Shown here: positions 38,995 through 59,908 of the stretch, piece by piece
Position numbering within the stretch: the first letter of the stretch is position 1
Layout of the letters: every line of letters starts with the position of its first letter
From: Halobacteriovoraceae bacterium
GTDB lineage: Bacteria; Bdellovibrionota; Bacteriovoracia; Bacteriovoracales; Bacteriovoracaceae
Direction: 5' to 3'
NCBI GenBank assembly: GCA_002711995.1
Contig: PASN01000016.1
Location: 1-64,000 of the forward strand
Length of the DNA: 64,000 nt
Notes under the pieces: model-generated
Told to the model about the DNA's origin: nothing
Seen by the model: only the letters and a program-made list of their open reading frames with translations
Database searches by the model: none
Translations under genes and position numbers: made by a program

Positions 38995-40389
38995 ATGGGC
39001 CGCAAAAAGCTTATCTATTTTTTTGTGTTTTTGCTTTCGTTTGTACTAAGCGGATCGAAGGCCTTCGCCCAATGTACTGATGAGTTTGATAGTATAGGCC
39101 TGGACTGTGCTAAAGAAAAACTTGCTGAGGCCGGCGAGATAAAGTTCTTAGTTACAAAGGATCCTAAAAAAACTAAGGGCAAGACATACTTCTTCATTTC
39201 TAAAAATGGGATGCCCGGCAAATTTATAATTCGTTCAACATTTCTTTCCAAAGATGAATGTTCAATCTCATTGGATGTTACAACGTATCTGGGTCAAAGC
39301 TCAATAAGTCCTCCGGGGCATTTTGGAATTTCTAAAAATTATAACACTTGGAGCATGGACAGAGCGGGCTTTGATAAAACAAGCTCTGACGACTTTCGTC
39401 TTTACCAAAAACGTGGGAAGTGTGTATTTGCTTCTAGTGAGGCGACAGGCGTTTTTTACAAAAAGCTTAAGCAACCAGAGCTAATTCAAGGTCGTGACAC
39501 TTTATACTATGCCGGAAACTTTTTAATATTCCTTGCTGTGTTTCTTGTCGCAAGGGCCGTGTTTCAGGATGAAGATAAATTTAAGGCGCAGTCCAAACTT
39601 GAAGACGCCCAGAAAGACGATAAACAAGACGTTCCCAATGATATCGTTTTAAAATACTCAAGGCCTTTCTTCAAAATGTATTTCACTCCTGTTGTCAGTG
39701 GGATGAAAAGTAAAAAGAAAATTAGAGACAAGTACAAACGAAAGCTCGCTTCTGCAGGTTTAAGCAAGGCATTGTCTCCTGAGGATATGTTTGCCTTTAA
39801 GTTGTTTTTGATTATTGGGTTTCCAATTGTATTTCTAGGTCTTAGGGCCTTCCTCGAGGAAAGCTGGCCTTTATCGTTTGTTCCAATAATAAGTGTTCTT
39901 GGCTTCTTCTATCCGGATATGTGGTTGTCTGGAAAAATTGCCAAGAGAAAAGAAGAGCTAATTCAAAATATGCCTTTTATTGTGGATATGCTTGCCTTGT
40001 CGGTTGAAGCTGGACTGGATTTCATGGCGGCGATCCAGAAAGTCTTGGAGAAAGCTCCACCGTCTGCAATGTCTGATGAGTTTGAAATTCTTTTAAAAGA
40101 CACAAAAATTGGTGCGAGTCGAGCTGAAGGACTTAGACAGCTTTCGTGGAGAGCTGACTGTCTGCAAGTTTCATCTTTCACAGCGACTTTAATTGCAGCA
40201 GACGCTGTCGGAGCGTCTGTGGGGCCGATTTTAAAGACCTTGGCCGCTGAAATAAGACAAAAGAGAAGTGCGGACGCGGAAAAGAAGGGTGCCACTGCCG
40301 CAACTAAGATTCTTTTTCCAGTTATGTTTTTAATTATGCCGGCAGTTGGACTGGTTATTATGGCACCTATTTTTTTACAATTGATGTGA
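38995..40389 (+). CDS. TadC-like T2SF protein with secreted N-terminal domain
   Basis: This 464-residue protein ends in a TadC-type T2SF domain (about 300-464) with RKEELIQNMPFIVDMLALSV, EAGLDFMAAIQKVLEKAP and GASVGPILKTLAAEIRQKRS, plus several membrane helices (about 169-190, 262-310 and 440-464). TadC is an inner-membrane platform subunit of Tad/Flp pili. Unusually it starts with a cleavable-looking signal peptide (KLIYFFVFLLSFVLSGSKAF) and a domain of about 130 residues with several Cys that would be periplasmic. It heads a tightly packed operon with DUF192, FHA and PP2C genes; no TadA or TadB is in the window. Confidence 0.85.
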   Translation: MGRKKLIYFFVFLLSFVLSGSKAFAQCTDEFDSIGLDCAKEKLAEAGEIKFLVTKDPKKTKGKTYFFISKNGMPGKFIIRSTFLSKDECSISLDVTTYLGQSSISPPGHFGISKNYNTWSMDRAGFDKTSSDDFRLYQKRGKCVFASSEATGVFYKKLKQPELIQGRDTLYYAGNFLIFLAVFLVARAVFQDEDKFKAQSKLEDAQKDDKQDVPNDIVLKYSRPFFKMYFTPVVSGMKSKKKIRDKYKRKLASAGLSKALSPEDMFAFKLFLIIGFPIVFLGLRAFLEESWPLSFVPIISVLGFFYPDMWLSGKIAKRKEELIQNMPFIVDMLALSVEAGLDFMAAIQKVLEKAPPSAMSDEFEILLKDTKIGASRAEGLRQLSWRADCLQVSSFTATLIAADAVGASVGPILKTLAAEIRQKRSADAEKKGATAATKILFPVMFLIMPAVGLVIMAPIFLQLM

Positions 40390-40398
40390 TGGAGACAA

Positions 40399-40743
40399 AT
40401 GAGAATTGTGCATAAAAAAACGAACAAGGTGATTGCTTCCCAAGTGAGAGTGGCAAACACCTTCCTTTCTAGATTGAAAGGTCTAATGTTTATAAAACAA
40501 ATGAAAGGGTTTGACGCAATGTTGATTGAGAACACAAATTCAGTGCACAACTGCTTTGTTAGATTTTCAATCGACCTAATTTTTATAAACTCTGAATGGA
40601 AAATTGTGAAGATCGTTAAAAATTTCAGGCCATGGCGATTTAGCTGGATTTATTTCAAGGCAAGACATGTTTTAGAACTTCCGGCCGGCTCCGTTGGAGA
40701 TGAGATCCAGACAGGGGATTATTTGGAGGCGCAAGGTGTATAA
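40399..40743 (+). CDS. DUF192 protein
   Basis: This 114-residue protein matches the DUF192 pattern: RLKGLMFIKQMKGFDAMLIE, NTNSVHNCFVRFSIDLIFIN and ARHVLELPAGSVGDEIQTGD. Function of the family is unknown; members are often secreted, but this one lacks a signal peptide. DUF192 genes occur next to Tad/Flp genes in other bacteria as far as I recall, which fits the TadC neighbour. It overlaps the next gene by 8 nt. Confidence 0.85.
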   Translation: MRIVHKKTNKVIASQVRVANTFLSRLKGLMFIKQMKGFDAMLIENTNSVHNCFVRFSIDLIFINSEWKIVKIVKNFRPWRFSWIYFKARHVLELPAGSVGDEIQTGDYLEAQGV

Positions 40744-42304
40744 ATTAGTGGCCGTCGGAGGGAAACTTCGTGGAGCCGAAATTCAATTAAATGAAGGTGA
40801 AAATGTCCTTGGTAGAGGACTTGATGTTGATCACCCACTCAAAGTGGCGGGAGTTTCAAAGCGTCACATGTCCATCAATGTGAATGGAGACACTTGCTAT
40901 GTCCAAGACCTTGGATCCTCGAATGGCACTTTCGTTAATGGCAAACTTGTAAAGAATCAAACGGTAAAGGGCGGAGACAAAATTGCGATTCCCAATGTGA
41001 TCTTTCAAGTGGTCTATGTGAAAGAGAAAAAGGTCATTATTACCAAAAAAGTGGCCAAAGTTGATGAGGGAGGCGAGGACTCTATTGAGTTCAGAGATGT
41101 TGCTCCAAAAGATTTCATTGGAAGAGTAAAATATTTTTTCAAACACAAAATCATGTCTGTTGTTTACAGTTTTAATGAGCAATATGAGTGGAGTGTTCTC
41201 TTAGGTATTATTCTTTTTGTTTTTGTATGTACGAATATAGGTCTAACTATTGGTCCTGTTTTACATGATGGAAAAGAGCTTTTAAAAAATGAAATTGTGG
41301 CAAGGGGTGGTCAATACGCCGAAGAGGTTGCGAGATTTAACAGAGCGGCCCTTAGTCGAGGAGACCTAAATAGACTGAACACAAACTTTTTAGAAAACTC
41401 CGCCGAGGATGTGAAGTCCTATGAGCTTTTTGATTTGGAGGGGCGGATCGTTCGCCCTGTGGGAAAGTTAAACTCGTATGTTGAAGATGCTTTTTCCGTT
41501 AAGGCCTGGAAGCAAATTTTAGGAGGCGGGGAAAACGCTCTAAGAAAAACTATTTATGAAGTTGTAGGGGATGGAGAGATAGGTATTGGGAAGGCCATCC
41601 TTGCATATGACACCAACACAGGTAAAGAGGAGCCCGTTGGAATTATTGCAATTCGGTTTAAACCAAGATCCTGGGCGGCACAAGCGGCGAATCAGTCAGG
41701 GTCATATCTAGAAGAATTGATCATTACTTGCATTGTGGGCGTAATCTTTTTTGGCATTGTTTACTACATGACCACTAGGCCTTTGGAGCTCATGAGAATT
41801 CAAATAGAAGAGGTCCTGAGAGGTAAGCGAAAAGAGCTTCAATTGCCAATTCTATTTGATGAGATTCAACCGCTGAACAATACTGTAAATTCTATTCTCC
41901 AAAGACTTAAAGAGCTTCAGAGCGAAGATGGCGGCGACTTTGTGGAAATAGAAGAAGATGGACCTTACGTTAGAAGCCTTTACGAGTTCATGCAAGGCGC
42001 TCAAGGTCCAGTGATGGTGCTCAACTCTGAAAAGCTAATTGAGCATATAAACTCTGAAGGCGAGGACTTAACTGGTATGAGAGAAAGTTCCTCTGCGGGA
42101 ACCAGTCTACTGGACTCTGCCAGGGACCAAGGCTTCGCTGCGACTGTAATTGATTTATGCGATCAGTCCGCCAACAATGAAGGAACAAGCCAAAGCGAGA
42201 TGTATGAGCTAACAGGCAAAAGCTATATGATTCACGTCTCTTCTCTTTTAGGCAAAGATAATTTTGCCAAGGCCTTCTATGTAACATTTGTGGAGGATGA
42301 ATAA
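40736..42304 (+). CDS. Transmembrane FHA-domain sensor protein
   Basis: This 522-residue protein has a cytosolic FHA domain (about 1-95; NVLGRGLDVDHPLKVAGVSK, RHMSINV and LGSSNGTFVNG), a membrane helix (about 152-172), an extracytoplasmic segment of about 150 residues, a second helix (about 326-347), a HAMP-like stretch (TTRPLELMRIQIEEVLRGKR) and a PAS-like end (about 405-522). There is no kinase or methylation domain. The start is GTG 40736, set by GGAGG (40725-40729) 6 nt upstream; a longer TTG-started reading has no such site. It probably links an outside signal to a phospho-threonine partner. Confidence 0.78.
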   Translation: MYKLVAVGGKLRGAEIQLNEGENVLGRGLDVDHPLKVAGVSKRHMSINVNGDTCYVQDLGSSNGTFVNGKLVKNQTVKGGDKIAIPNVIFQVVYVKEKKVIITKKVAKVDEGGEDSIEFRDVAPKDFIGRVKYFFKHKIMSVVYSFNEQYEWSVLLGIILFVFVCTNIGLTIGPVLHDGKELLKNEIVARGGQYAEEVARFNRAALSRGDLNRLNTNFLENSAEDVKSYELFDLEGRIVRPVGKLNSYVEDAFSVKAWKQILGGGENALRKTIYEVVGDGEIGIGKAILAYDTNTGKEEPVGIIAIRFKPRSWAAQAANQSGSYLEELIITCIVGVIFFGIVYYMTTRPLELMRIQIEEVLRGKRKELQLPILFDEIQPLNNTVNSILQRLKELQSEDGGDFVEIEEDGPYVRSLYEFMQGAQGPVMVLNSEKLIEHINSEGEDLTGMRESSSAGTSLLDSARDQGFAATVIDLCDQSANNEGTSQSEMYELTGKSYMIHVSSLLGKDNFAKAFYVTFVEDE

Positions 42305-42308
42305 GATA

Positions 42309-43286
42309 ATGGGCGGCGCGGTTAAAATTCTCAAGCACTACGAGATGCCAAAGCAAAAAGGCGAGTATTTTCGCTTGGTCTGCCTTAACGGCAAGAACAA
42401 AGGGCTTGCTTATCTCCTTGCCGAAAATAGGGTGGTCATGGGAAGAGGAGAAAAGGCCCATATTAAGGTTCATGATTTAAAGTCTTCGAGAGAGCATGCT
42501 GAAGTTGTAAAAGTCGGCGCAAGTTACGTCATTACAGACCTTGGGTCTCAAAATGGTGTTGTTGTAAATGATTTGAAAATCAAACAACACTCCTTGGGAC
42601 AAGATGATAAAATTATCATTGGCACCACCGTTTACAAGTTTGAAAGATTTGAAGTCACTGAGGATAAAGAAAAGAAAAAAACAAAGAAAAAAGAAGAGAA
42701 GGTGTTCGAGGATGAGACTTTTGAAGAAAAAAAGTCAAAGCTCACCCCTGTTTTGTCAGGAGTTGCCGTACTTGCCTTGCTGGTGTTGTTCTTAGATTCA
42801 CCTGAAAAATCAAAGACGGAAACCAAACGATCCAGCGCCAATTATAAAGTAAATGAAGTTTCCGATCCTTTTATAAACACATTAAAGCGTAAAAAAGCTG
42901 AAGATAAGAGAAACAAAGAGAAGTTGAATATATATTTTCAAAAAGGACTCCGAGAATTTAGAGAGGGGAACTTCTTTAGGGCCATAGCTGAGTTTGAGCA
43001 TGCCCTTTCATGGAGCCCTAATGACGGCCTTGCGCAATTTTACCTCAGAAAGACTAAGGAGGCCTTGGACAATTCGATTGAAGAAATGTTTATAAAGGCC
43101 AAAAGGGACGAGGAGTCCTTAAAGTACCAAAACGCCGCCGTCTCTTACTGCGCAATACTTAGGCTCTTGCACCGATACCCTGAAGATGACCGCTTTGTTA
43201 ACGCAAAAGAAAGTATCTCTAGACTGGAAGAAAAGCTTGGCTATGAAGAAGGTCAGATCGAATGCGCGGAGGAGGTTGGAAAATGA
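42309..43286 (+). CDS. Membrane-anchored FHA protein with TPR-like tail
   Basis: This 325-residue protein has an FHA domain (about 20-110; RVVMGRGEKAHIKVHDLKSS, REHAEVV and LGSQNGVVVND), a Lys/Glu-rich linker, one membrane helix (about 147-166; PVLSGVAVLALLVLFLD) and a TPR-like C-terminus with QKGLREFREGNFFRAIAEFE. The C-terminal part would face the periplasm. ATG 42309 is used with GGAGG 42292-42296; ATG 42297 directly abuts this site and is less likely. It overlaps the next gene by 4 nt. Confidence 0.78.
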   Translation: MGGAVKILKHYEMPKQKGEYFRLVCLNGKNKGLAYLLAENRVVMGRGEKAHIKVHDLKSSREHAEVVKVGASYVITDLGSQNGVVVNDLKIKQHSLGQDDKIIIGTTVYKFERFEVTEDKEKKKTKKKEEKVFEDETFEEKKSKLTPVLSGVAVLALLVLFLDSPEKSKTETKRSSANYKVNEVSDPFINTLKRKKAEDKRNKEKLNIYFQKGLREFREGNFFRAIAEFEHALSWSPNDGLAQFYLRKTKEALDNSIEEMFIKAKRDEESLKYQNAAVSYCAILRLLHRYPEDDRFVNAKESISRLEEKLGYEEGQIECAEEVGK

Positions 43287-45514
43287 AGTTTGAAATTTTT
43301 AAAGACTCCCGCAAGTTATCTGAGTTGGAAGTGCCACTTCTGGAACTGCAAAATGGTGGTGAGATCTATGTGGGTAGATCTGATGACTGCCATATTGTTT
43401 TGGATGATCAACAAGTTTCAAGGCATCACGCAATGATTTCCTTGAAGGATGGTGAGCTAAACATAAAAAGACTCTCTGACATGGGGGCTGTTAGCATTAA
43501 TGGTGTTGGTCAAAAAGAGTCCGTTATCAAAGAAGGGGACAAGGTTTCCATTTTGGACTATCTAATTCTAGCAAAAGATTTTCCAGTCCAAGTGGAAGAA
43601 AACACCTCTCCTCTTCTAGATGAACCAACAACAATCATGGAATCCCCAGTGCCTGATTTAGAAGATGATATTCCAGAGCCAGAACCCATTGAGGATCCTA
43701 CGGAGGTTCTCAGTGAGAGCGAAGAAGAAGCTCCTGTTGAGGAGGAAGTTGAAGGGGATGATGAAGACTCAAGCTTTGCTGAAGAGGAGCCTTCTGAAGA
43801 TGATGAATTCGGTGGAGGTTTTGAGGACAGTAATTCCTTTTCAGAGGATGCTTCGGAAGACACAGAATCCGAGGATGGCTTTGATGAAGATATGGGATTT
43901 GGCGCAGAATCAGACGGATTTTCTGATGATGCTGGATTTGGGGGGGATGACGAAGACTCCACTCAAGTCTACCAATCATTTGCAAAGTACTATCTGATCA
44001 TCGACGGAGAGTATGCACCTTTTGATAAATTTCAAATTGAAGACTCTGAAGTTTACATTGGTAGAGATGCTGAGAAATGCCAAATTGTGCTGAACGATCC
44101 TGAAGTTTCCGGGCGACACGCCCTCATCAAAAAGACGATGGTTAATTGTTCAATCGAAGATTTGGACTCCTCCAATGGAACAATGTTTAATGGAGAGAGG
44201 ATCAACAAGTCAGAGCTTGGCAATAACGATAATTTTCAAATTGGTTCAACGATATTCACAGTAAAAATTCAATCTGACTTAATTGAGTCTGAAAAAGATA
44301 TGCTCATGCCAGTCGACGAAGATCAAGAAGTTGAAGTCGAAGAAGTGGTTGAGGAAGAGGTTGACTATAACGAGCTCGACTCTGGAGAAGGTGGGGAGTT
44401 TGGTGTTGAGCCCGCAGAGGAGAAAAGTCTCTTCAAGAGAATTTGGAAGGATCCTAAGAAGAAAAGAATTGCGATCGTAGTCGGACTCCTGCTCGTCGTC
44501 TTGCTTTTAAGTGAAGAGGAGACTGGGAAGAAGCCAGCTTCAAAGGCAAAAGATAAAAAGGCAGAGCAGGCAAAAGTTCAAGAAAAGAAGCCTGTTGAAA
44601 AAAGGGAGCTCTCACCAGAGGTCATTGAAAAGCTGGAGGAAAACTACGCTCTTGCTCTCTCTAAATATGAAGGAGGAGAGTATTATGAGGCCAAGGAATA
44701 TTTAGAAATTATTCGCACTATTGATCCAAGTTACAAGGACACAGAAACTCTTAGAAAGCTTGTTCAACAAGGGCATGAGGAGCTATTAAGACTCAAAGCC
44801 GAAGAGCAGGCCGAAAAAGAAAGAAAAAAGCGTCAATTGAAAGTAAAAGCTTTGCTTGAAAAGGCACAAGAGGCCGTTCGCAAAAGAGAGGTCGCGGTAG
44901 CTGAAAGCTTATTTAATCAAATTTTAGAACTGGATCCCGAGAATATGGATGTGCCACAGCTAAAGCTGGAAATTGAGGCCTATCAAGCAGCCGAAAGAAA
45001 GAAAAGGGAGGAGGCGCAAAGAAGGAAGGCCTTGAGAAAGGCCATGCTGGACGCTCTGAGTCCTGGTAAGACATTATTTTTAAAAGAAGAGTGGTATAAG
45101 GCAATTGATCGCCTCACAAAATTCACTCAAAAGCCCAATATCGATGAAGACCTTATGAAAGAGGCGACTGAAATGCTTAAAGAGGCCAAGGTGAACCTTT
45201 CGGCACAAATAAACCCACTTCTTGGTAGAGCAAGATCTTACAGAGAAGGCCAAGACCTGAAGAGGGCATATGAAACTTATGGAGAAGTTTTAAAGTATGA
45301 CCCATCAAATGAAGAGGCCTTGACTGAGAGGGAAAAGATATTTGACTCACTTAGAACAAGATCAATGAAAGTTTATAGAGAGGCCTTAATCTCTGAAAGT
45401 CTAAGTTTATTTGAAGAAGCCAGAGAGAAGTTTGAGGAGGTTCAGCAAATATCTCCAGTCAACAGTGAATACTATAATAAGGCCACTGAGCGCCTAAAAA
45501 ACTATTTGGAGTAG
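43283..45514 (+). CDS. Double-FHA membrane protein with acidic linker and TPR/coiled-coil tail
   Basis: This 743-residue protein has FHA-1 (about 15-100; IYVGRSDDCHIVLDDQQVSR), a very acidic low-complexity linker (about 108-230), FHA-2 (about 238-335; VYIGRDAEKCQIVLNDPEVS and LDSSNGTMFNG), a second acidic stretch, one membrane helix (about 393-411; IAIVVGLLLVVLLL) and a helical, TPR-like tail (about 430-743) rich in EAxxxxEEA-type repeats. Both FHA domains keep the Gly-Arg, Ser-x-x-His and Asn-Gly residues for phospho-threonine binding. ATG 43283 overlaps the previous stop and has GGAGG upstream. Confidence 0.8.
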   Translation: MKFEIFKDSRKLSELEVPLLELQNGGEIYVGRSDDCHIVLDDQQVSRHHAMISLKDGELNIKRLSDMGAVSINGVGQKESVIKEGDKVSILDYLILAKDFPVQVEENTSPLLDEPTTIMESPVPDLEDDIPEPEPIEDPTEVLSESEEEAPVEEEVEGDDEDSSFAEEEPSEDDEFGGGFEDSNSFSEDASEDTESEDGFDEDMGFGAESDGFSDDAGFGGDDEDSTQVYQSFAKYYLIIDGEYAPFDKFQIEDSEVYIGRDAEKCQIVLNDPEVSGRHALIKKTMVNCSIEDLDSSNGTMFNGERINKSELGNNDNFQIGSTIFTVKIQSDLIESEKDMLMPVDEDQEVEVEEVVEEEVDYNELDSGEGGEFGVEPAEEKSLFKRIWKDPKKKRIAIVVGLLLVVLLLSEEETGKKPASKAKDKKAEQAKVQEKKPVEKRELSPEVIEKLEENYALALSKYEGGEYYEAKEYLEIIRTIDPSYKDTETLRKLVQQGHEELLRLKAEEQAEKERKKRQLKVKALLEKAQEAVRKREVAVAESLFNQILELDPENMDVPQLKLEIEAYQAAERKKREEAQRRKALRKAMLDALSPGKTLFLKEEWYKAIDRLTKFTQKPNIDEDLMKEATEMLKEAKVNLSAQINPLLGRARSYREGQDLKRAYETYGEVLKYDPSNEEALTEREKIFDSLRTRSMKVYREALISESLSLFEEAREKFEEVQQISPVNSEYYNKATERLKNYLE

Positions 45515-45516
45515 TT

Positions 45517-46254
45517 GTGAATATTAAGACTTTTTCGGCAGAATCAAACCCAGGTCCCTTTCTTCAAGTAAATGAGGATGGCTATGACTTTGACTTAATT
45601 AATGAAGTGTTTATTTTGCTCGACGGTTTTGGTGGTTCTGGAATTGGTGATGTTTGTGTTTCAAATCTTAAGCAGAACATTAAAAGCTTTTACACCAAAT
45701 TTTGCTCTGATCCAGATGCGACTATGCCTTTCTATTTTAGCCCTAGATACCTTTTGGAAGGCAATGCTTTAATAAACTCTCTGCTTCACGCACATGGCAA
45801 ATTGTATAAAGAGAACTTGGAAAAAGAGTTTTCCGCAAGAGCTGGCTCTTCTGGAATCTTTATGGCAAAGGCCGAGAGTGTTCTAACGATCGTATCTGTT
45901 GGAAACTGTGCCTGTTATTTGTATCGCAAAGGTGAACTGTCCAAAATATTTATTGAAGACAGCTTTCAATTTCTTACCAATAGCAGCTATCAAAACCACT
46001 TAAAAACTACGCCCATTAGCGGCATAGGCCTATTTCCTGAGCTTGACTATCAAGTAAAGGAGTTAAGGCTTTTTCCTGGCGACAAAGTGATTGCACTCTC
46101 TGATGGAGCATATGCTCGGCTTTCAGAAGGGGAATTGCGAGACATTGTGAACAACCCTGAAATAGAAGGCAAAGAAAAGATAGCTAAACTCTTCAGCATG
46201 TCCAATCAGAAGGGGAATCTGGACAACCAGTCCTGCATGATTTTGGAATTTTAA
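45517..46254 (+). CDS. PP2C-family protein phosphatase
   Basis: This 245-residue protein has the PP2C motifs: FILLDGFGGSGIGD (metal-binding Asp-Gly-x-Gly-Gly), GSSGIFMAKAESVLTIVSVG with the conserved Gly-Asn (VGNCACYLYRKGEL), DKVIALSDGAYARLSEGEL and DNQSCMILEF. Such Stp1-like enzymes remove phosphate from Ser/Thr. It follows the FHA genes directly (GTG start 45517, 2 nt after the previous TAG), so it is the likely eraser of the marks these FHA domains read. No matching kinase is in the window. Confidence 0.82.
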   Translation: MNIKTFSAESNPGPFLQVNEDGYDFDLINEVFILLDGFGGSGIGDVCVSNLKQNIKSFYTKFCSDPDATMPFYFSPRYLLEGNALINSLLHAHGKLYKENLEKEFSARAGSSGIFMAKAESVLTIVSVGNCACYLYRKGELSKIFIEDSFQFLTNSSYQNHLKTTPISGIGLFPELDYQVKELRLFPGDKVIALSDGAYARLSEGELRDIVNNPEIEGKEKIAKLFSMSNQKGNLDNQSCMILEF

Positions 46255-46336: not shown

Positions 46337-47602
46337 ATGGAACAAAAGATACTTATCGCAGATGATAGTTTGACCATACAGAAAGTGATCAAAATCACTT
46401 TGGCAAACGAACCTTTTGAGCTTCACGACTGCTCACAAGCAAGCATATTAAAAGATACAGTTGAGAGCCTTCGTCCTGCGATGGTTTTGTTGGATTTTAA
46501 CTTGTCTGAAAATAAGACCGGCTATGACCTTTGTAGAGAAATAAAGGCCGTTGACTCTAAAATCCAAGTTCTTATGCTTTTTGGAACCTTCGACACCATA
46601 GATGAGGGACTTCTTGCTGACTGCGGATGTAACTATCATATCGTTAAACCATTTGATGGAACCAAATTTATAAACCTTTGTCGCTCTATGGCCTCTGACT
46701 ATGAAAGTGGAGACACGGGCAGTGAAGCAACAAGTGCGGTGGAAGAATCTAGTGATTTCCCAGAGCCAATATCTACTTCTGAGGAAGATGAGTGGGTGGT
46801 GAATCAACCTTCTTACGAGGAGCCTGTCGAGGAAAAACTGGAATCTTCTGAACCGAACCCTCTTGAAAATGAAATTGAAAGCTGGGGGATGGAAGTTCCA
46901 TCCATAATAGGAGCTGAGGAAGAAACACAAGATTATGAGATTCCTTCAGTCATTGCTTCATCTGAGTCCGCTGAAAAAGAAGAAGTATCTTCAGATCTAG
47001 CTCCGTCAGATGAGGCCCAAAGTTTGGATTCGGAAGAAGCCGCCTCCAGTGAAGAGCCTAATCTACCAAGCTCCAGTGATCTTGAATATCCAAGTGAAAT
47101 CACCACTCAGGAGCCTGAAACAAGTTCAAAGCTTATCTCTTTGGATGAGTTGAGTCCCGACGAGGATATGGATGTTTTTGAAGGTGGAACTGAGACTGAA
47201 GAGGATGTTAAAAACCTAGAAAGTCTAATAGAGGATGAAGTTGGTGAAGAGGGAGACCTGTGGGCCGCGGATGTTATAGAGTCTTCTGATGAGGAGGATG
47301 AAGACCTCCCTATGGTGGAGCCTCATGGCCTTGAGGAAGTGAGCTCAACTCCTTCCGATTTTCCTGCCGATGTGATGGAGCAGCAGATTGAACCAATCGA
47401 TGTTGAAAAAATGTCAAAAGACATTAAGTCCGAACTGGAGAAGGAGCTCTCTGATAAGCTATCTCCGCTTGTTGAAAAATATATTCAAGAGTACTGTGAG
47501 CAACAAGTCGAAAAAATTGCTTGGGAGGTCATTCCTGACCTAGCAGAAAATCTTATTAAAAAAGAAATCCAAAAGATTTCAGATTCTATCTTGGATCAAT
47601 AA
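46337..47602 (+). CDS. Receiver-domain protein with long acidic linker and conserved tail
   Basis: This 421-residue protein has an N-terminal receiver domain (about 1-120; phosphoacceptor D53 in LLDFNLSENKTGYDL, IADD and VKPFD motifs), an acidic Ser/Glu-rich linker (about 130-345) and a helical C-terminus ending with VEKIAWEVIPDLAENLIKKE. The layout recalls RomR of Myxococcus and Bdellovibrio and the PopZ-type tail of polar hub proteins; this is a resemblance, not a firm assignment. ATG 46337 is preferred over TTG 46334. The end overlaps convergent birA by 17 nt. Confidence 0.8.
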   Translation: MEQKILIADDSLTIQKVIKITLANEPFELHDCSQASILKDTVESLRPAMVLLDFNLSENKTGYDLCREIKAVDSKIQVLMLFGTFDTIDEGLLADCGCNYHIVKPFDGTKFINLCRSMASDYESGDTGSEATSAVEESSDFPEPISTSEEDEWVVNQPSYEEPVEEKLESSEPNPLENEIESWGMEVPSIIGAEEETQDYEIPSVIASSESAEKEEVSSDLAPSDEAQSLDSEEAASSEEPNLPSSSDLEYPSEITTQEPETSSKLISLDELSPDEDMDVFEGGTETEEDVKNLESLIEDEVGEEGDLWAADVIESSDEEDEDLPMVEPHGLEEVSSTPSDFPADVMEQQIEPIDVEKMSKDIKSELEKELSDKLSPLVEKYIQEYCEQQVEKIAWEVIPDLAENLIKKEIQKISDSILDQ

Positions 47603-57119: not shown

Positions 57120-58505
57120 ATGAAAATTTTAGTGACAGGTGGAACTGGCTTTGTTGGCTCAAAAGTTGTGATCTCTCTGTTTGAACAAGGCCATGAGCTA
57201 TTTATCCTTACCAGGAGCGCTGCAAGAGCTAAGAAGAAGCTGCCTTTGCCGATTTCATTTCTTGAGGGGGACCTTTCAAAGGGAGTTGTTGAGAACCTGC
57301 CTTCAGTGGACGCAGTGATTAACCTCGCCGGTGAAAATATTGGAGAGGGAAGGTGGAGTCCTGAGGAAAAGAAAAGAATTAAACGCTCACGGGCGGCACT
57401 TTCTAAAAATCTAATTTCTTCTCTTAGCTTAGATAGTATTGAGGTATTTTTACAGGCATCAGCGATTGGATATTATAGAGATTCAAAAGGTGATGAGTGG
57501 ATCGATGAGAATACAGAAATGGGAGAGCACTTTTTAGCGGATGTGTGTAAAGAGTGGGAAGCTCCAGCTCGAAGCTTGCCTGAAAATATTAGAGTCGTTA
57601 TTCCCCGGATTGGAGTGGTTCTTGGAAGTGACGGCGCCCTCATGGCAAAGTTGATCCCACTTTATCGTGCCGCTCTTGGTGGAGTGCTTGGCGATGGAAA
57701 GCAGTGGATGAGCTGGATTCACATTGAAGATCTTGTAAAGTTTATTACCCAATCCATGGATATACCTAAATTTAGAGGCACAATAAATCTTACGGCGCCG
57801 TCCCCAATTACAAATCGAGAGTTTAACAGCGAACTTTCTAGATTCTGCCAAAGACCCGCGCCGTTCAAAGTTCCTAAATTTATGCTGAAGGCCACAATGG
57901 GCGAGAAATCATATCTTGCATTGAGTAGTCAAAGAATTTCATCTCGACTTGGAAGTGAGCTTGGTTTTGATTTTAAATTTAATAATATCTCCAGCGCCTT
58001 GAAGGAGATTTGTGGCCATGAGCAACTTGCCCATGAAGAGGAAGAGGGGTTTCATTACAAGCTTGATAGGCTCATGTATATTAAAAAACCTAAGAAAGAA
58101 GTTTTCGAATTTTTTGCAAGGCCTGGAAACTTGGAACTTGTAAGTTCAAAAAGTTTGGATATTGAGCTGACCCATATTAGTGATGAAAGGCTGAAGGAAG
58201 GAGCCATTTTTAATTTCAAAGCAAAAAAATATGGAATTGGAATGACGATAAAGTCAAAAGTAGTTTCCTTCGAAGAAGGGGAGAGCTTCATTGATGTGCA
58301 AACTTCTGGTCCATTTGAATCATGGAGTCATAAGCACAAATTCATCGGTTTTAGGGGTGGAACAATCGCAGTTGATCAAGTCCGTTATCGAATGCCATTT
58401 AAAATCTTTGGCGACTTTGCCGCTAAAAAGGGACAGAGCGAGGTTGCTGGAATGTTTGATCAAAGAATAAATGATATTTTAAATTATTTTGAGGAAAAAA
58501 GATGA
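57120..58505 (+). CDS. SDR epimerase (TIGR01777-like) fused to an SRPBCC domain
   Basis: This 461-residue protein has an NAD(P)-binding N-terminal part (ILVTGGTGFVGSKVVISLFE; INLAGENIGEGRWSPEEKKR) typical of the YfcH/TIGR01777 family, followed (about 305-461) by an SRPBCC lipid-binding-like domain (YIKKPKKEVFEFFARPGNLE). This fusion is known in several bacteria, often next to photolyase genes. Two adjacent ATGs (57117 and 57120) are possible. It overlaps the photolyase start by 4 nt (ATGA). Confidence 0.88.
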   Translation: MKILVTGGTGFVGSKVVISLFEQGHELFILTRSAARAKKKLPLPISFLEGDLSKGVVENLPSVDAVINLAGENIGEGRWSPEEKKRIKRSRAALSKNLISSLSLDSIEVFLQASAIGYYRDSKGDEWIDENTEMGEHFLADVCKEWEAPARSLPENIRVVIPRIGVVLGSDGALMAKLIPLYRAALGGVLGDGKQWMSWIHIEDLVKFITQSMDIPKFRGTINLTAPSPITNREFNSELSRFCQRPAPFKVPKFMLKATMGEKSYLALSSQRISSRLGSELGFDFKFNNISSALKEICGHEQLAHEEEEGFHYKLDRLMYIKKPKKEVFEFFARPGNLELVSSKSLDIELTHISDERLKEGAIFNFKAKKYGIGMTIKSKVVSFEEGESFIDVQTSGPFESWSHKHKFIGFRGGTIAVDQVRYRMPFKIFGDFAAKKGQSEVAGMFDQRINDILNYFEEKR

Positions 58506-59908
58506 AATCATTAGTTTGGCTCAGAAGAGATCTGAGACTAAAAGACCAAATGGCGTTGAGCTATGCGACTCAAAACAGCGATGAAGTATACATTGCTTTT
58601 GTTTTTGACACCCTTATTTTAGATAAGCTCAAGGATAAAAAAGACCATAGACTATACTTCATTTATAAAACTCTAGAAACTTTAAACGAATACCTCTCCA
58701 GCAAAAATGCTGGCATATATATGCTTCATGGAGACCCTGTTGAGGAAATTCCGAAGTTAGCTAAAAAACTAGAGGTGGATAGGGTTTGCGTAAATAGAGA
58801 TTATGAAAAATACGCAAAAGATAGGGACTCAAAAGTCAAAAAATCTCTGTCTGAAAAAGATATTGAATTTGAGAGCTTTAAGGATCAAGTCATTTTTGAG
58901 TCCGACGAAATTCAAACCAATGATGGGACCTTTTATAAAGTTTTTACTCCATATAAGAATTCATGGCTTAAAAAACTTTAAAATGTTGAGGACGCCATTT
59001 CTGAAAGACCTGTAGATGTATCAAAGCTTACATATAAACAAATAAAAGGCTTTTCTAAAAATATCACATTGGACGAGCTAGGCTTTGAAGAAGCTGAAGA
59101 GGCCAAAAAGAGGGATGTTAACCCTAAAAAAACATTAAAGGACTTTTTAAAGAGAGTGGACAAGTATCACGAGGAAAGAGACTTTCCAGCATTAGACTCG
59201 ACTTCCCACATGAGTGTCTATTTACGTTTTGGCAATGTCTCAATTAGAGAGCTTGTGCGCTCATTAAAGCCCATAAGGGGAGAGGGCAAACAAACGTGGC
59301 TCAGTGAGCTTGTTTGGAGAGATTTTTATTCTGGCTTTTTGGACACCCATAATGAAGTGGAGACCAAATCATACAAGTACTCCGAGGTGGAGTGGGATAA
59401 TGATCCAAAGCTGTTTAAGGCGTGGAAAGAGGGGAAAACCGGTGTTCCAATAGTTGACGCCGGGATGCGCCAGCTTAATGAAACGGGATGGATGCATAAC
59501 AGAGTGAGAATGATAGTTGGCTCCTATCTAACAAAAATTTTACAAGTGGATTGGCGCAAGGGTGAGAAGTACTTTGGTGAAAAGTTAATTGACTACGATC
59601 TTGCTTCCAACAATGGAGGCTGGCAATGGTGCTCTTCGACGGGGACGGACGCAGCTCCTTATTTCAGAATTTTCAATCCTTACCGACAGTCAGAGCGCTT
59701 TGACAAGGAAGCCAAGTACATAAAGAAGTTTGTGCCTGAACTTGAGAAGCTCCCGGCCAAATATATTCATGAACCTCTCAAGATTGACTCCAAACTAGAA
59801 GAAAGCCACAACTTTAAACATGGAAAGGATTATCCCAAACCTGTTGCGGACTATAAAAGCAATAGAGAGAAAAGTATAAAAATCTTTAAGGAGGCCTCAA
59901 ATGGTTAA
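58502..59908 (+). pseudogene. phr: Deoxyribodipyrimidine photolyase interrupted by in-frame TAA
   Basis: The full frame is 468 codons, the usual size of class I photolyase. Codon 160 (58979-58981) is TAA, directly after VFTPYKNSWLKKL, a conserved segment; the frame then continues as NVEDAISERPVDVSK without shift. The N-terminal part (KSLVWLRRDLRLKDQMALSY) has the antenna fold; the second part has SELVWRDFYSGFLDTHNEVE, VDAGMRQLNETGWMHNRVRM and NNGGWQWCSSTGTDAAPYFR, all key FAD and DNA residues. No other decay is seen. A TTG at 59069 could restart only the C-terminal part. It overlaps its neighbours by 4 and 8 nt. Confidence 0.85.

Follow-up and report, generated by a model that had tools for sequence, protein, structure and literature searches.

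Is a Tad-type machine controlled by proteins that read phosphothreonine? The question is raised by six genes in the window, by which we mean the whole stretch of DNA analysed, 64,000 nucleotides of contig PASN01000016.1 (C16) from a Halobacteriovoraceae bacterium. An earlier note on this DNA had proposed such control, and we believe it is plausible judging from the sequence. The explanation we consider reasonably probable is that this 'tadC-FHA' operon encodes the second inner-membrane platform protein of a single Tad-type (Kil-like) pilus machine, together with a phosphothreonine-reading, contact-related regulatory membrane assembly.

The six-gene block and its relatives

The block (38995-46254, forward strand) consists of six open genes. 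The first (38995..40389, +) encodes a TadC/CpaH-type inner-membrane platform protein of the T2SF family (PF00482, 3e-13) and the second (40399..40743, +) a DUF192 protein (PF02643, 4e-18) in which a TM scan found no transmembrane segment. Then come three FHA proteins: FhaA, with a GTG start (40736..42304, +; FHA, 5e-14), FhaB (42297..43286, +; FHA 6e-13, TPR_2 7e-4) and FhaC (43283..45514, +; two FHA stretches 3e-28, TPR_2 1e-7), the orthologue of Bd0474. The sixth gene, again with a GTG start (45517..46254, +), encodes a predicted PP2C Ser/Thr phosphatase. The contents and order had been read correctly before, and the domain matches confirm all of them, including the four FHA domains in three membrane proteins, each of which passes the Pfam cut-off. 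The tight packing, claimed as overlaps or gaps of about 10 nt or less, holds as well: from 5' to 3' the spacings are +9, -8, -8, -4 and +2 nt, with 86 nt to the preceding gene and 82 nt to the following one. No site for FliA, the attack-phase sigma factor, was found upstream of tadC or of the genome's own Tad cluster with an E. coli-type consensus, for which counts were near chance.

The block is not a chance arrangement, since of 40 loci taken from across the phylum 32 have all six genes in the same order on one strand (in one of the 32, TadC lies 2.6 kb upstream). A lack of conservation in relatives had been named as grounds for giving up the proposal; the cluster is conserved. The incomplete loci include one at a contig end, one with an FHA gene in two frames, those of families f3 and f7, where the sixth gene is absent from the locus, two divergent f9 loci, and one f14 locus at which the reading of the 40 did not find the cluster. 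TadC is the first gene of the operon in nearly all loci, and the DUF192 gene keeps its position in nearly all of those sampled. A homologue of FhaA is present in 190 of 192 Bdellovibrionota genomes, a count in which the weakest matches in distant genomes may represent the FHA domain alone; a profile search placed full-length FhaA matches in most of the distant genomes that were re-checked. What is new here is this intact six-gene order, the conservation of the FhaA site, the distribution of kinases and PP2Cs, and the occurrence of active and dead forms of the sixth protein.

The double-FHA protein of the Bdellovibrio copy (L174) has 12 of 12 published Bd0474 interface residues, and because of this we regard the block as orthologous to Bd0470-Bd0475 of Bdellovibrio bacteriovorus. 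Two other genomes of the same family also have all 12 and two do not. The order, tadC-DUF192-FHA-FHA-FHA/FHA-(PP2C fold), is identical in L174 and the window. It follows that a system of this composition, of which the earlier note knew no description, had in fact been described: Bd0470-0475 was treated as one operon in a 2025 paper, which also reported binding of Bd0474 to Bd0075 by two-hybrid, gave an AlphaFold-Multimer ipTM of 0.604 for Bd0475 with Bd0473 and labelled Bd0475 hypothetical (PMC12034629), and a Tad-like system with FHA proteins, Kil, had been described too (PMC8460266). Bd0470 (TadC) and Bd0474 are predation genes of B. bacteriovorus. Transposon mutants of tadC fail in attachment, killing and rounding, while those of Bd0474 attach and do not kill or round (PMC6561027), which is to say that they stall between attachment and killing. 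A role in predation for the window's operon would be carried over from B. bacteriovorus, and we see the FHA proteins as the leading candidates for turning prey contact into action of a Tad-type machine.

The platform protein and its machine

Six T2SF matches were found in the genome that holds the window. They belong to two PilC/GspF-type proteins with two T2SF domains each, one TadB-like protein and the window TadC. There is thus a single TadC-like gene and a single TadB-like gene, which bears out the suspected Tad-like partner and supplies the tadB whose search had been suggested. The TadB-like gene sits in a cluster at C18:171-179 kb with Flp-like/pilin-like genes, a prepilin peptidase, CpaB, a secretin and a CpaE-CpaF fusion ATPase. 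This cluster contains no TadC, so the Tad genes are split over two loci, TadC on C16 and the remainder on C18. Since the C18 cluster lacks a TadC and the genome has just one, the window TadC is the only available partner of TadB; we assign it as the missing partner by elimination, in a genome that is 96% complete.

The window TadC differs from Bd0470 in being extended by about 185 aa at its N-terminus (38995-39550), where it has a signal peptide and an extra domain of about 140 aa. Long forms of 408-476 aa also occur in L063, L064 and L065, and most other loci have about 300 aa. Two further CpaF-like ATPase genes lie off the Tad cluster, on C20 and C3 (L020: 9411-10553; L023: 4926-7423), and one of them adjoins a secretin-like gene. 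They bear on the comparison with Kil, one trait of which is a single Tad ATPase.

Among the known systems closest to the block is Kil, the Tad-like killing apparatus of Myxococcus xanthus, which assembles where the cell touches its prey and kills it (PMC8460266, PMC12075869). Its Tad genes also lie in two separate loci. In kil cluster II the genes right after TadC encode first an FHA-TM protein and then an FHA-TM-TPR protein; our TadC family HMM matches the TadC there at 4e-72 (the TadB at 4e-19), and our FhaC model gives 2e-45. The Kil authors proposed an FHA signalling cascade with an analogy to type VI secretion and named an FHA-fused ATPase as a signature of Kil (PMC8460266). There are also differences. 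The Myxococcus locus has no DUF192 gene and no PP2C, and FhaA of the window carries a sensor-like HAMP-PAS part. Myxococcus KilF has an N-terminal FHA domain, whereas the window genome's Tad-cluster ATPase (700 aa, T2SSE) is fused to a CpaE/MinD-like domain and carries no FHA domain. For this last reason we speak of a predicted Kil-like machine and stop short of placing it among Kil systems.

Could TadC be a passenger and the operon control a different target, such as type IVa pili, gliding by Agl/Glt or type VI secretion? The T6SS core protein VipB is missing from the window's own genome, from another genome of its family and from the Bdellovibrio genome, and is present in Myxococcus; with no VipB in the own genome, control of a T6SS is ruled out there. 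The gliding machinery includes an FHA protein, GltG, and the FHA domains of the block do match both GltG and T6SS TagH, in each case below the cut-off. One author group has also linked Tad-locus proteins to type IVa pili (PMC3818213). Against a passenger role, TadC heads the operon at nearly every locus and precedes the FHA genes in kil cluster II too, and mutants of TadC and of Bd0474 are both defective in predation (PMC6561027). We consider a target other than the Tad-type machine quite improbable.

Three FHA proteins as readers or as scaffold

The three FHA proteins had been described as membrane proteins with tails of TPR-like repeats. This fits only two of them. FhaB has an FHA domain, one TM segment (149-167) and a TPR-like tail, and FhaC has two FHA domains, one TM segment (396-414) and a TPR tail, but FhaA has two TM segments and is built differently: FHA, TM, an extracytoplasmic alpha/beta domain, TM, a HAMP-like helix and a PAS-like domain. 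An AlphaFold2 model of FhaA (mean pLDDT 79, pTM 0.37) shows the FHA domain, the two TM helices, the extracytoplasmic domain and the C-terminal PAS-like domain. Its FHA part matches OdhI, GarA and DgcB at Z 17-19, and residues 144-522 match a WalK sensor model. We take the WalK match to reflect domain layout and not identity of fold, because its rmsd is 16 over 339 residues and because the FHA part filled the VIA-align match list. FhaA would thus be a sensor-like FHA protein. Going by the order of the TM segments and the published model of Bd0474, the FHA heads should be cytoplasmic, and the TPR tails of FhaB and FhaC and the sensor-like domain of FhaA should lie outside the inner membrane.

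Are the FHA domains able to read phosphothreonine? The predicted Arg, Ser and Asn of the site are present in FhaA, FhaB and the second FHA domain of FhaC, and the set is incomplete in the first FHA domain of FhaC. Conservation was scored over 43-52 homologues per protein. In FhaA, G26, S41, H44, S61, N63, G64 and N68 are kept in 52 of 52 homologues and R27 in 51. The G, R and S of the FhaB site are kept in all 43, and the Arg, Ser and Asn of the second FHA domain of FhaC in 50-52 of 52; the first domain mostly has Phe or Tyr in place of the usual Asn. Apart from that domain, the sites look competent. There is a precedent in DgcB of Bdellovibrio, where a phosphothreonine peptide acting through the FHA domain gates prey invasion (PMC6733907). 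DgcB shares the FHA fold with FhaA (Z 17.6); it differs in being a soluble FHA-GGDEF cyclase with no link to Tad.

FHA-TM proteins can also be purely structural, as in SctD/YscD of the type III secretion system. The three proteins might accordingly form an SctD/YscD-like inner-membrane ring or scaffold round the Tad platform, with FHA domains that serve as protein-protein modules and do not depend on phosphothreonine. Two observations speak for this and against the reading we favour: all three proteins match the structural Pfam domain Yop-YscD_cpl above the cut-off, and the first FHA domain of FhaC has lost the usual Asn. The layout of an FHA domain, a single TM segment and an extracytoplasmic tail is that of SctD, and TIGR02500 (yscD) matches FhaA and FhaC weakly, at 28.8 and 27.2 bits, below its cut-off of 86. 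A purely structural FHA domain, however, would have less reason to conserve the full phosphothreonine-site set that FhaA retains. We think a mainly structural role is unlikely, although it is the likeliest of the alternatives, and the sixth gene bears on it from both sides.

The phosphatase and the kinases elsewhere in the genome

The Pfam matches of the window's sixth protein are weak (SpoIIE 6e-5, PP2C_2 0.016). A chance match is nevertheless ruled out by NCBIfam Stp1_PP2C (6.5e-15, residues 11-243) and by matches to the PDB: a profile match of 6e-24 to tPphA and a best single-sequence match of 7e-5 to PppA of the P. aeruginosa T6SS. The operon thus resembles the PpkA-Fha1-PppA pathway of type VI secretion in pairing an FHA reader with a PP2C, but it has no kinase and its genome has no T6SS. 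The acidic residues that bind metal are complete (E20, D21, D36, D196 and D236, with all four aspartates), and the window PP2C looks active. Of the seven relatives in the same clade six also have the full set of aspartates, which makes 7 of 8 members with the window counted in; L063 alone departs from this, with two kept.

Bdellovibrio is a different matter. In the Bdellovibrionales clade to which it belongs none of the four metal aspartates is kept in any of 19 loci, and Bd0475 itself is a PP2C fold that has lost them all. Other lineages have intermediate sets, and the tree requires at least two separate losses of the metal ligands. An HMM built without the Bdellovibrio family still recovers the degenerate Bdellovibrio gene at 2e-10, so its homology is not an artefact of its own inclusion. 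One degenerate form was modelled (pLDDT 75) from an alignment that included intact PP2Cs; the model superposes on PP2C structures across about 190 residues, at Z 16-17.6. The fold thus persists although the usual mechanism of catalysis is no longer possible, and in all of the Bdellovibrionales clade the sixth protein is a pseudoenzyme of PP2C fold.

The earlier note held that PP2C erases what the FHA domains read. This agrees with the ligands kept in the window's family. It fails as a general mechanism, because all four metal aspartates are gone across the Bdellovibrionales clade; the operon phosphatase appears dead in the best-studied predators, so writing, reading and erasing cannot generally form one cycle inside the operon. 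A pseudoenzyme retained where erasing is impossible fits the structural alternative, while metal ligands retained by all but one of the 8 members of the window's clade do not. We tentatively suggest, with somewhat less than even confidence, that the conserved role of the sixth protein is binding: in the Bdellovibrionales a phosphatase would once have become a pseudophosphatase and stayed fixed next to the FHA readers of a pilus used in predation, where it might serve phosphothreonine sites as decoy, as protector or as assembly factor, and the Bacteriovoracaceae would have kept the enzyme.

It had also been said that no kinase is encoded. This stands for the block, which has no kinase gene, but not beyond it. 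The suggested genome search found Hanks kinases at C13 and C6, off the block. In a check of 23 genomes none lacked a Hanks kinase scoring above the cut-off, and each also had at least one PP2C_2 match above the cut-off outside the operon. Twelve genomes were read for the long kinase of the window's genome, and 10 have a homologue of about the same size that matches it over most of its length or over the kinase part. The Bdellovibrio genome has one kinase above the cut-off, at 3.06 Mb and possibly Bd3148, and Bd3148 has been suggested as the kinase for DgcB, the FHA-gated invasion enzyme (PMC6733907).

Might this instead be a general phospho-signalling operon, like the FhaA-FhaB-PstP operons of Gram-positives, that adjoins tadC by history? 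Our PP2C HMM does match PstP-like proteins of FHA-FHA-PP2C operons (1e-30 and 4e-21). The block, however, has no kinase, RodA or PBP gene, its TPR and sensor architectures are specific to it, and TadC is fixed as its first gene. We give a housekeeping role very little credence.

Returning to phosphothreonine control of a Tad-type machine, the mechanism we infer, including the phosphorylation itself, the ligands, the direction of control and the role in the host, would run as follows. Contact with prey would lead a Hanks-type kinase, whose gene lies elsewhere, to phosphorylate threonines of the machine or of the FHA proteins. The FHA heads would bind these phosphothreonines, and the platform would be assembled or switched on. 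FhaA may supply a periplasmic input, and the TPR tails may bind further proteins of the envelope, just as Bd0474 binds Bd0075. Within the window's family, the operon PP2C would reset the phosphorylation. In Bdellovibrio its descendant, without metal-dependent catalysis, would probably be a binding partner, and other PP2Cs would erase. The conservation of the operon and of the FHA sites, the one or few Hanks kinases per genome and the active and dead forms of PP2C make the phosphothreonine hypothesis directly testable in laboratory predators.

Several minor observations deserve mention. In the window's genome the long Hanks kinase and a DgcB-like FHA-GGDEF protein lie about 3.5 kb apart (L022: 6584-8503 and 11997-12905), a neighbourhood that differs in L194. 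At L025 (5509-7028) two genes overlap, one for a PP2C of 263 aa and the other for an atypical, short kinase of 243 aa. The gene that begins 82 nt 3' of the block (46337-47602, +) encodes a response regulator with a receiver domain, an acidic linker of about 200 aa and the C-terminal motif VEKIAWEVIPDLAENLIKKEIQKI. The five further loci read from the same family all have it in the same position. A Bdellovibrio ORF at 2.68 Mb matches its C-terminus (5e-9), and the protein is a possible RomR-type polarity regulator. Further downstream, a photolyase/cryptochrome-like gene (58502-59908, +) apparently comes as two separate ORFs of 159 and 279 aa, which a frameshift may have produced.
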